From assembly GCA_964059195.1 (NCBI GenBank), contig CAXKWD010000004.1:119756043-119820042 (forward strand): DNA of 64,000 nt. Direction: 5' to 3'. This document shows, in pieces, positions 1,371 to 8,329 of this stretch. The notes under the pieces are model-generated. The model was not told where the DNA came from and did not search any database. It saw only the letters and a program-made list of their open reading frames with translations. How positions within the stretch are numbered: position 1 is the first letter of the stretch; each line of letters opens with the position of its first letter. The translations under genes were made by a program, and so were the position numbers. Source of the DNA: Ectobius pallidus (taxonomy: Eukaryota; Arthropoda; Insecta; Blattodea; Ectobiidae).

Positions 1371-2801
1371 GTAGGGGTACCTCCGCTTTAGCCCGCCGAC
1401 GTCTAGCGCCGCGACGCCCCAACTCCATCTTAAACTAATTTCAGTAACGCCATCTTGACCATCTTGTCTTTCATATGAAACCACCCCCACCCCTCTATCA
1501 TCCCCCTAAACAAAGTTATAGCAAATATAAGATTTGGTCGGTAAAACAGAGACCTGCAATACCAACCTTGAAACAATCAAACTAAAAACAATTAATAAAA
1601 TTAACAAAAATAAATAAATGTTATACAAATGAGTTAGGCCCTTATGAATTAATTTTCAACCCCTAGAGGGGTATTTTAAGAATATATTATTAATTTGTAT
1701 ATCTGACAGAGTAGTAACAAAATTAAATAAATAAATGTTATACTTAGAGGAGTTAGGCCCTTTTGAATTAATTTTCAACCCCACTAAAGGGGTAGTTTTA
1801 AGAAATAAAAATAAATATAACTTTTAAAATCTAGTAGTATAATGTTTAGGTGATAGAATTAAGACCCGTAACAAGAGGGTAGTTTTCACCCCCACAACCG
1901 TTCTAACCTATTTAAAATTGTATTTTCGACATATAAACACCTTAAGGAGTGATATTAATTATCTGACATGATTTACACCCCCAAATGAATTAATTTTATG
2001 AAGGGGTAGTTTTTCAAGGCCATTGCAGATATGGACAACTTGAGCCACTGTAAATCGTCTTGAGGGTAGTTTTCACCCTCACAACCAATCTAACACATTA
2101 AAATTGTATTTTTCAACAATAAAAAATCATACTGAGTGATATCAACTATCTGACATCATTTACAACCCGAAGGGGGTTAATTTTATTAAGGGGTAGTTTT
2201 TCAAGGTCACACAAGTTTTTCCACAGACGAACAAGATAAGCCGTTATAAATAATCTAGAGGGTGTTTTTCACCCCTCACAATCAATCAAACCAATTTAAA
2301 ATTTATTTTTTAGATATTGATGCTATAACAAGTGTCTAAGAACAATATTAAACCCAGGATCTCAAACGTTTTATTTTTGCAAAAATGTACATTTTAAGCT
2401 ATTATAAATGTTTTTTCGCCCCTAACAAACTTGCTTTGTTACGTCATATGTATGAATAAGTACCACTATAGTCAAAGTTAAGCTGGGCAAATCCTAAAAA
2501 TAAAGTAATTTATGACAGCTAAGAATTCGTCACAGTTCCAAAGATCTGATTGGTTGAACTTTTGGTAGTATCCCATATCATTGGAGAGTTATATTTTATT
2601 TGTGAATATCTGTTCCCTCGTTATAGGATTGGATGAGAGGACACAAAATGTCTGCAAACAGAAAAAACCATCTGTAAGAAAGAGTATGTTGGAAACATTA
2701 GGACAAACACAACTCTAAAAAACCCTTATCAATGCAAACTGCTTGTAAATTAAAAAAGATGTGGGAAAACACAAGTGAAAACAAAGCAGAAGATGAAAAT
2801 A
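1371..2801 (+). repeat. left terminal inverted repeat (about 1.43 kb)
   Basis: It pairs with 6898-8329 in inverse orientation until the match breaks just after a GAAAATA shared by both arms. Inside are degenerate sub-repeats: two blocks about 117 bp apart with a TTAGGCCCTT start and a TTTTCAACCCC core, then three blocks about 186-193 bp apart that begin with a GGGTAGTTTTCACCC-type motif (1879, 2065, 2260). Two of these blocks contain CTGACATNATTTACA. The outermost 60 bp are GC-rich in an otherwise AT-rich arm. Confidence 0.9.
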
Positions 2802-3358
2802 TTGTCGTCTTTGAATAAAATTTAAAAAATCACATAATAAATACACAAATTGTGATTGAACATATACATAGACAGAGGAAATCAAGCCATTTATACAATA
2901 AAATTACGAAACGATCATTCCTAACAAACTCAGAATTTATTGGTTTGTTATAGCAAATGTTAAACAGGGCAAAAATAAGCCCCATCCCCACTAAAGCTAA
3001 ACCCTCAAAAATAATAAAATGTTATACCCACCATAACCGGATGAAGGCTCAGCAACTCCTAATTTATGACAATGACGTACAGGATGAAAGGAGAGGTTAA
3101 ACGTAAAAGGAAAGACATACCGAATGGTACATCGTTCCTTTTTTAAAATAAAGACAAAGAAATATGTTAGTAAATATTGTTTATTTCAAAATTATCCTTC
3201 ACCAATTAACAGATTGTCAAGTTGTACATTTTTATGTATCATAAGAAAGTTTATTTCATTCACAGATGGAGAATCATACAAACATAGTCTATTATTTGCA
3301 TAATCTGTAGGATAGCTTGGAGCACAGATGTTCACATAATTAGTAATAAGAACAACGA
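2802..3358. other. non-coding spacer with poly(A) signals for the metalloproteinase
   Basis: No coding potential seen. On the minus strand AATAAA occurs at about 3250-3255 and 3180-3185, about 105 and 175 nt past the metalloproteinase stop codon. These are plausible polyadenylation signals. Confidence 0.5.
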
Positions 3359-6288: not shown

Positions 6289-6897
6289 GATGACGTTTCT
6301 TCTGCACCTTGCAACCCCGCCCTAAGGGATAAAACGTGTGGAAGGAAGCTTGGGAAACCAACCCCAGGGAAGTTAGCTTATTCCCTGAAAACGGGCCCAC
6401 CCATAGGTATAGTAGGACATCCCGGAGGGGGCACAAAACAGAATGTAAAAGTTCCTGATTCAAAAACAATAACAGATAATATATAATTTAGAACCAGATG
6501 TTTACAAGACAAAGGAAATTACAAAATTAGTATAGCCTGAAATAGAAAAACAAGAGTAATTTACAGCACTGTTTACATTGACACTTTTGAATGATAATCC
6601 AACAATTTGGACTTTCCGGTGAAATAATTATTCTGTTTACATCAAAATCACAAGCTGAAAGAGCAACCTAACCATTATAACAAATTTAAATAAATATTAA
6701 CACACAGAAGAAGGGGACTTTACAATAGAAAAAGGGAGGGGTTTACTCCGTAAAATGACACAAGGGACGATGGCTTTATTTTATAAGGACAGAATCGAAG
6801 CAAACCGGGGAAAATATAATGTAGGCCTACAAACAATCATTAAAAAGGGGCAAAATTTAGTAAAAGGCGGGAAACATTACTGCCATCGGGATGCCTT
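6289..6897. other. unique non-coding part next to right TIR
   Basis: No gene seen. It holds the upstream region of the BIR gene. A 140-codon plus-strand frame at 6064-6486 is the shadow of the BIR gene and its leader. Confidence 0.45.
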
Positions 6898-8329
6898 TAT
6901 TTTCATCTTCTGCTTTGTTTTCACTTGTGTTTTCCCACATCTTTTTTATTTTACAAGCAGTTTGCATTGATAAGGGTTTTTTTAGAGTTGTGTTTGTCCT
7001 GATGTTTCCAACATACTCTTTCTTACAGATGGTTTTTTCTGTTTGCAGACATTTTGTGTCCTCTCATCCTATCCTATAACGAGGGAACAGATATTCACAA
7101 ATAAAATATAACTCTCCAATGATATGGGATACTACCAAAAGTTCAACCAATCAGATCTTTGGAACTGTGACGAATTCTTAGCTGTCATAAATTACTTTAT
7201 TTTTAGGATTTGCCCAGCTTAACTTTGACTATAGTGGTACTTATTCATACATATGACGTAACAAAGCAAGCTTGTTAGGGGCGAAAAAACATTTATAATA
7301 GCTTAAAATGTACATTTTTGCAAAAATAAAACGTTTGAGATCCTGGGTTTAATATTGTTCTTAGACACTTGTTATAGCATCAATATCTAAAAAATAAATT
7401 TTAACTTGGTTTGATTGATTGTGAGGGGTGAAAAACACCCTCTAGATTATTTATAACGGCTTATCTTGTTCGTCTGTGGAAAAACTTGTGTGACCTTGAA
7501 AAACTACCCCTTAATAAAATTAACCCCCTTCGGGTTGTAAATGATGTCAGATAGTTGATATCACTCAGTATGATTTTTTATTGTTGAAAAATACAATTTT
7601 AATGTGTTAGATTGGTTGTGAGGGTGAAAACTACCCTCAAGACGATTTACAGTGGCTCAAGTTGTCCATATCTGCAATGGCCTTGAAAAACTACCCCTTC
7701 ATAAAATTAATTCATTTGGGGGTGTAAATCATGTCAGATAATTAATATCACTCCTTAAGGTGTTTATATGTCGAAAATACAATTTTAAATAGGTTAGAAC
7801 GGTTGTGGGGGTGAAAACTACCCTCTTGTTACGGGTCTTAATTCTATCACCTAAACATTATACTACTAGATTTTAAAAGTTATATTTATTTTTATTTCTT
7901 AAAACTACCCCTTTAGTGGGGTTGAAAATTAATTCAAAAGGGCCTAACTCCTCTAAGTATAACATTTATTTATTTAATTTTGTTACTACTCTGTCAGATA
8001 TACAAATTAATAATATATTCTTAAAATACCCCTCTAGGGGTTGAAAATTAATTCATAAGGGCCTAACTCATTTGTATAACATTTATTTATTTTTGTTAAT
8101 TTTATTAATTGTTTTTAGTTTGATTGTTTCAAGGTTGGTATTGCAGGTCTCTGTTTTACCGACCAAATCTTATATTTGCTATAACTTTGTTTAGGGGGAT
8201 GATAGAGGGGTGGGGGTGGTTTCATATGAAAGACAAGATGGTCAAGATGGCGTTACTGAAATTAGTTTAAGATGGAGTTGGGGCGTCGCGGCGCTAGACG
8301 TCGGCGGGCTAAAGCGGAGGTACCCCTAC
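6898..8329 (-). repeat. right terminal inverted repeat (about 1.43 kb)
   Basis: Reverse complement of 1371-2801. The differences I found are a handful of single-base changes and one A-run length change, so identity is roughly 99.5%. It carries the same sub-repeats in inverse order. Confidence 0.9.

Follow-up and report, generated by a model that had tools for sequence, protein, structure and literature searches.

A cargo-bearing element with long inverted ends in Ectobius pallidus, probably a non-autonomous Polinton/Maverick

What kind of mobile unit carries a metalloproteinase gene and an inhibitor-of-apoptosis (IAP)-type gene between long inverted ends? The question is raised by a 64,000-nucleotide stretch of the blattodean insect Ectobius pallidus (GenBank assembly GCA_964059195.1, contig CAXKWD010000004.1, positions 119,756,043 to 119,820,042, forward strand), hereafter the window, in which an earlier note had recognised such a unit and had been unable to place it in a described family. 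Our analysis places it: because of the 6-bp target-site duplications (TSDs), the AGTAG...CTACT ends and the presence of an element with PolB, integrase and homologous terminal inverted repeat (TIR) ends, the unit is best read as a non-autonomous Polinton/Maverick, belonging to a many-copy cargo family that is probably mobilised in trans by helper Polintons (probability roughly 0.86). It is filed as non-autonomous because PolB and integrase were not found in the ORFs (open reading frames) scanned of the window element and are present in the candidate helper, C407. Both proposals of the earlier note, a cargo-bearing long-TIR transposon and a virus-derived or virus-interacting cassette, came close.

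Ends and target-site duplication

The element spans positions 1370–8330 of the window (6961 bp) and reads 5'-AGTAGG...CCTACT-3'. The left TIR (1370–2801, plus strand, 1432 bp), starting with 5'-AGTAGGGGTACC, and the right TIR (6898–8330, minus strand, 1433 bp), ending with CCCCTACT-3', align over 1433 columns with 5 mismatches and a single 1-bp gap, as near-identical as had been claimed, and the outermost 925 bp of the two arms are identical. The left TIR contains two pairs of internal direct repeats, of 33 bp and 148 bp. As letters, the reported 8-bp duplication is present: TCATAACA occurs at 1363–1370 and 8330–8337. The symmetry of the arms allows two parses of this repeat, either an 8-bp duplication flanking G...C ends or a 6-bp one flanking AG...CT ends; when the element is read as 1370–8330, the duplication is the 6-bp CATAAC (1364–1369 and 8331–8336).

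Comparison with other family elements decides between the two parses. The TSD is exactly 6 bp in all 12 elements, the window's included, in which both tips are readable, and the 6-mer is distinct in each, which argues for the 6-bp parse in the window; the 8-bp repeat is a 6-bp TSD plus two chance bases. These 12 come from 17 tip pairs tried, the other five having a tip missing or outside the pieces (two with one tip missing, and three of eight pairs from the metalloproteinase list whose 1-kb pieces contain no AGTAG tip). Tips were anchored on the AGTAG motif. Of the eight new pairs, only two showed a 6-bp TSD when anchored at the point where the arms begin to match, because the homology overran the tip or the tip fell outside the piece, and re-anchoring on AGTAG gave it in all five that have the motif.

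Searching the genome with the outer 331 bp of the TIR returned at least 77 matches (40 of 824 candidates scored), so that the other copies for which the earlier note had advised a search are many. AGTAG stands at the aligned start in 27 of 30 TIR loci, the flank being poor in information and the inside rich; the first five tip positions are invariant since those 27 loci were picked by this motif. AGTAGT is found in 13 of the 27 aligned tips; the window copy has G instead of T as its sixth base. An 18-base subterminal motif of the window TIR has 91 exact occurrences, compared with none for the same pattern read backwards, and these occurrences form 37 convergent tip pairs.

These ends are like those of known Polintons/Mavericks (adintoviruses), which also have 6-bp TSDs, AGT-type ends and long TIRs. 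Vertebrate Mavericks have (AGT)2//(ACT)2 ends, 6-bp TSDs and TIRs of 46–1447 bp in the excerpt available of PMC8097293, and long TIRs with 6-bp TSDs are likewise described in that of PMC8969392 (here and below, the cited papers are represented by excerpts). The window TIRs fit the vertebrate range, and the arms of the near-palindromic relatives described below exceed it.

Near the tip, a variable block (about positions 11–24; 1381–1394 in the window, compared across TIR loci L016–L045) lies between the conserved AGTAGKGGTAT and CGACGTCTAGCGCC. Its sequence varies from element to element, but in the pairs compared the two ends of a given element have identical or almost identical blocks, as if the two ends had been copied from each other. 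Other elements with the metalloproteinase (L072–L079, L084–L085) have different tips, of the TATACTCTTGAG type and AGTAGTAAAGGCGTAGG, and the cassette thus appears to be attached to several TIR lineages. There are also same-tip elements with no metalloproteinase in the stretches read (L053/L054 at C4:101.76M, and pieces L087 and L089), which contain much internal repetition, few ORFs of at least 100 codons and, in L087, an 18-residue remnant of the small gene X.

Cargo genes and their mirror-image copies

Between the arms, three genes lie on the minus strand. The largest (3359–5014) encodes an intact, intronless matrix metalloproteinase (MMP) of 551 amino acids plus stop, with Pfam matches to M10 (4.3e-25) and hemopexin (3.9e-5), in agreement with the complete hemopexin-type MMP first described here. 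It consists of a PG-binding-like prodomain with the PRCGVAD switch, the HEIGHTLGIHH zinc site, a P/T-rich linker and hemopexin stretches. The M10 hallmarks (cysteine switch, HExxHxxGxxH, Met-turn and hemopexin) are all present, and its N-terminus, judged by eye, resembles a signal peptide. None of 500 dinucleotide shuffles of the core produced an open frame as long as its 565 codons. The linker (4033–4200) contains 21-bp tandem repeats encoding a repeated proline/serine/threonine motif, and length differences between MMP copies possibly come from this array.

The second gene (6004–6288) encodes a single-BIR protein of 94 amino acids plus stop, with no RING within the ORF; the Pfam BIR match (6.3e-19) bears out the earlier assignment, and the nearest solved chains are the BIR domains of NAIP and DIAP1. 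The protein is of IAP type by its predicted BIR zinc fold, and an anti-apoptotic activity is predicted. MMP and IAP genes are accessory genes of insect large DNA viruses, and the element carries the same two gene types. The third, ORF X (5218–5571), encodes 117 amino acids plus stop and possibly has a 77-bp intron (5147–5223) and a second exon (5057–5146). No Pfam family, protein-search candidate or viral-contig match was found for it. Taken alone, X is weak evidence of a gene by its length (at least 143 open codons in 24 of 500 shuffles, and at least 117 from an ATG in 31 of 500), yet it recurs in eight of nine other elements read and is without a stop in six of eight compared copies, the window's included. 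No Pfam match was detected in ten other scanned ORFs of at least 60 codons in or overlapping the element, and the absence of a transposase noted before thus holds for the ORFs scanned.

Of 2253 candidates in a genome search with the MMP, 79 were scored, which gave at least 89 matched stretches distributed over 79 places, and the frame is uninterrupted over residues 1–552 or 2–552 in many copies. Among the 79 listed places, 66 form 33 minus/plus pairs, 4.3–12.9 kb apart from start to start, and neighbouring MMPs within 15 kb of each other are in minus/plus order in 33 of 34 pairs. A listed BIR gene lies within 10 kb of 64 of the 79 places; for BIR itself at least 150 places were listed (150 scored of 671 candidates), with 52 minus/plus pairs among them. 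Inside the nine other paired-TIR elements, MMP and X were both read in eight.

Mirror arms extend over 3.6 kb at 98.6% identity at C8:60.56M, 3.6 kb at 96.6% at C9:25.45M, 3.5 and 2.9 kb at about 99% at C7:50.9M, and 5.9 kb at 99.9% in the MMP-less element at C4:101.76M; these four are near-palindromes or have long mirror arms. The element at C2:158.1M has one MMP, one X and one BIR; its arms measure about 1 kb within the piece read, and it resembles the single-cassette form of the window. The cargo copy at C1:53.5M contains an ORF of 1209 amino acids (L058:316–3945) with RVT_1, endonuclease and RNase H domains; it was considered as a core gene and rejected as a non-LTR-type retrotransposon.

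The ratio dN/dS of the MMP is 0.28–0.65 in 19 of 21 comparisons among seven open stretches, a sample biased to open copies, of which four are full length (window, L048, L049 and L059) and three (L046, L055 and L058) are partial and broken elsewhere. The remaining two values, 1.43 and 1.12, are both from comparisons between the arms of one element. For BIR the ratio was computable in 9 of 15 comparisons and is 0.12–0.61 there. No stop is listed in 71 of the 89 MMP stretches (counted by eye; stops only, frameshifts not counted). The moderate purifying selection seen in these ratios suggests that the MMP protein was used while the family spread.

The best matches of the MMP (8000 candidates scored) are insect proteins (ants, firefly) and contigs at 28–37% identity, ahead of vertebrate, mollusc and plant MMPs. 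In a midpoint-rooted tree of 15 of the 22 matched proteins, the window MMP groups with 11 at 100/100 against four other rows; no smaller group is well supported, and one row, an ant fusion protein, is 38% filled. This ant gene model, P0017, joins an MMP to the Pfam "double jelly roll-like domain" (2.8e-61) and, although the model may not be real, hints that the MMP lineage adjoins capsid-type genes in other insects. Several searches of viral contigs for a source of the cassette gave no match, with the sole exception of weak IMG/VR loci, 15 of which match parts of MMP residues 94–306 at 27–42% identity. The protein comparisons and tree that had been proposed thus yielded insect relatives for the MMP, no candidate for X or BIR and only weak viral matches.

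A candidate helper in the same genome

An autonomous partner with the same ends had been suggested as the thing to look for, and C407 provides a candidate. At 56.3–71.5 kb it contains a 15.16-kb element that begins with AGTAGT, has the TSD AGGGTT and bears TIR ends 87.5% (200 columns) and 91.8% (184 columns) identical to those of the window. Its ORFs match rve (5e-14) with chromo (4e-7), Pox_A32 (2.8e-5), Peptidase_C5 (2.2e-4) and DNA_pol_B_2 (1e-33), which together give it PolB, a chromodomain integrase, an A32-like ATPase of packaging type and an adenain-like protease. The 12.9 kb read yielded none of the three cargo genes (MMP, X and BIR). The element is the candidate helper of the window family. 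A close relative lies at C5:78.17M (98.3% over 5.0 kb), and the integrases of C80, C392 and a larger element at C8:65.97M are 95–100% like that of C407.

Of the 37 tip pairs, ten contain a listed MMP, five a listed integrase and none both; an eleventh, at C8:70.9M, contains broken MMP stretches. A PF03175 search of the 2.12-Gb genome returned at least 151 matches; 75 of the 1704 candidates were scored, and many of the matches lie in open frames about 1380–1515 codons long. The 75 PolB places listed are all more than 30 kb from any listed MMP. Two PolB groups were compared upstream of PolB, with two copies each, and in both the homology starts exactly at AGTAGT. A blastn comparison of these two groups with the window TIR gave no match below E 1e-3, only weak short ones.

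In another Polinton group, the integrases (69% identical) also occur in minus/plus pairs, 3.9–4.8 kb apart (C1:95738189/95742994, C3:194642399/194646626 and C7:71989507/71993450), and mirror-image duplication may extend beyond the cargo family.

Proposed mechanism and alternative explanations

Judged from this anatomy, trans-mobilisation is the simplest account: PolB and integrase of helper Polintons would act on the common ends, copying and inserting the cargo elements. The palindromes would arise when a replication intermediate folds back during protein-primed synthesis, a mode of birth drawn from general knowledge of protein-primed replicons, and the window element would be a palindrome that has lost its interior, or else the single-cassette ancestor of the palindromes. 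The MMP would be secreted and digest matrix and the BIR protein would restrain caspases, favouring survival of the infected cell and spread of the DNA. The near-palindromic members would then be a natural record of possible fold-back and duplication in protein-primed linear genomes, and the cassette family with its candidate helper makes it testable whether animal Polintons are live viruses and whether they carry genes between hosts.

Several observations weigh against this account. It rests on sequence anatomy, with transposition, excision and virion unobserved. Inside the outer 200 bp, the TIR-like repeats of C407 are only about 77–85% like those of the window, and the true mobiliser may therefore be another Polinton; the two PolB groups compared have subterminal sequence unlike the window's and only the end motif in common. 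Two of the MMP places have a listed integrase as near as 14 and 21 kb, which leaves the mutual exclusion unproven, and a jelly-roll capsid gene was not identified in the C407 helper pieces. As for the cargo, BIR was read in only four of the nine other elements, stops occur in 18 of the 89 listed MMP stretches (counted by eye), and dN/dS of X is 0.48–2.22 in 14 of 15 comparisons, with few changes and no clear constraint. The choice of open stretches also pushes the MMP ratios down, and the comparisons share sequences and are not independent.

Compared with the Polintons/Mavericks as known, the family shares a helper with PolB, integrase, ATPase and protease, and differs in that the window element yielded no core gene, in its near-palindromic relatives and in its cargo of MMP, X and BIR. 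Nematode Mavericks, according to the excerpt of a meeting report (PMC10680173), carry a wosp protease and a krma kinase between species. They are similar in the Maverick-type vehicle and the protease cargo; unlike these Mavericks, which are reported there to have acquired cargo, the elements read here have no core gene beside the cargo, which is often duplicated in mirror image. Maverick cargo as such is already known, and within the portions available of the open-licence PMC literature neither a Polinton with MMP or IAP cargo nor a cargo-only palindromic Polinton family was found.

A tentative extension of the trans-mobilisation reading, which we consider somewhat less probable than its negation, is that the cargo elements are satellites packaged in helper Polinton particles and passing between hosts, with MMP and BIR aiding infection. 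The packaging-type ATPase and capsid-maturation-type protease of a candidate helper with common ends are consistent with it, as are the patchy occurrence of related MMPs among insects, the ant fusion of an MMP with a double-jelly-roll-type domain and the size of the tip-paired elements with a listed MMP (7.0–16.9 kb), nine of ten being no longer than the helper's 15.16 kb and the largest holding a nested retrotransposon. Against it, the copy number is explained by spread inside one germline, no capsid gene was identified in the helper, and particle, packaging signal and between-species transfer are conjectural. A link of the ant jelly-roll fusion to the helper was tried and dropped, with no usable tblastn match in the helper pieces (best E 1.0). 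Phage satellites (phage-inducible chromosomal islands) are small elements that use helper packaging machinery and carry cargo, in the excerpt of PMC6431247; the window family is likewise one of small cargo elements, whose helper packaging is a conjecture from genes, and is by contrast a relative of eukaryotic Polintons. Slightly more doubtful is the wider proposal of a class of animal virus satellites, in which palindromic, gene-poor Polinton derivatives with a duplicated infection toolkit (secreted MMP, BIR and X) would be replicated, packaged and integrated by helpers; one host genome would then contain a helper resembling a virus along with many cargo-carrying elements that parasitise it.

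No more probable than that class is a history in which Polinton derivatives captured MMP and BIR by chance and the proteins stayed idle during spread. The unconstrained X and the MMP stretches with stops would suit such passengers, as would the same-tip element without MMP at C4:101.76M and the 27 of 37 tip pairs with no listed MMP, though C8:70.9M with its broken MMP stretches is among these; the MMP ratios, despite their bias to open copies, and the 71 stretches with no listed stop argue the other way.

That the genes are a host set used by the host, for example in antiviral defence or tissue remodelling, with incidental TIRs, is very unlikely: open genes in many copies would be expected of it, but the cassette is flanked by such TIRs at several sites, each with a TSD of its own, and the MMP is uninterrupted in one frame, unlike an intron-bearing gene. 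Duplications of P and hAT elements are 8 bp, and the end motif and enzymes of the Galileo/P superfamily differ from the Polinton type. Another long-TIR transposon, of the hAT or the P/Galileo type and with a duplication of 8 or 7 bp, is scarcely credible. In its favour are the 8-bp repeat that the window shows when taken by itself and the long, internally repetitive TIRs of variable length that the family shares with Galileo and other P foldback-like elements (Galileo with a 7-bp duplication; excerpt of PMC3573991). These TIRs come here with a TSD that is 6 bp long, and neither 7 nor 8, in all 12 readable copies, with homologous ends on a PolB/integrase element and with no transposase domain in the ORFs scanned; an 8-bp-TSD transposon was rejected on the TSD count.

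Elsewhere in the window, at 30920–35713, two long ORFs on the minus strand, of 1081 and 515 codons, resemble by eye a retrotransposon pol and gag.

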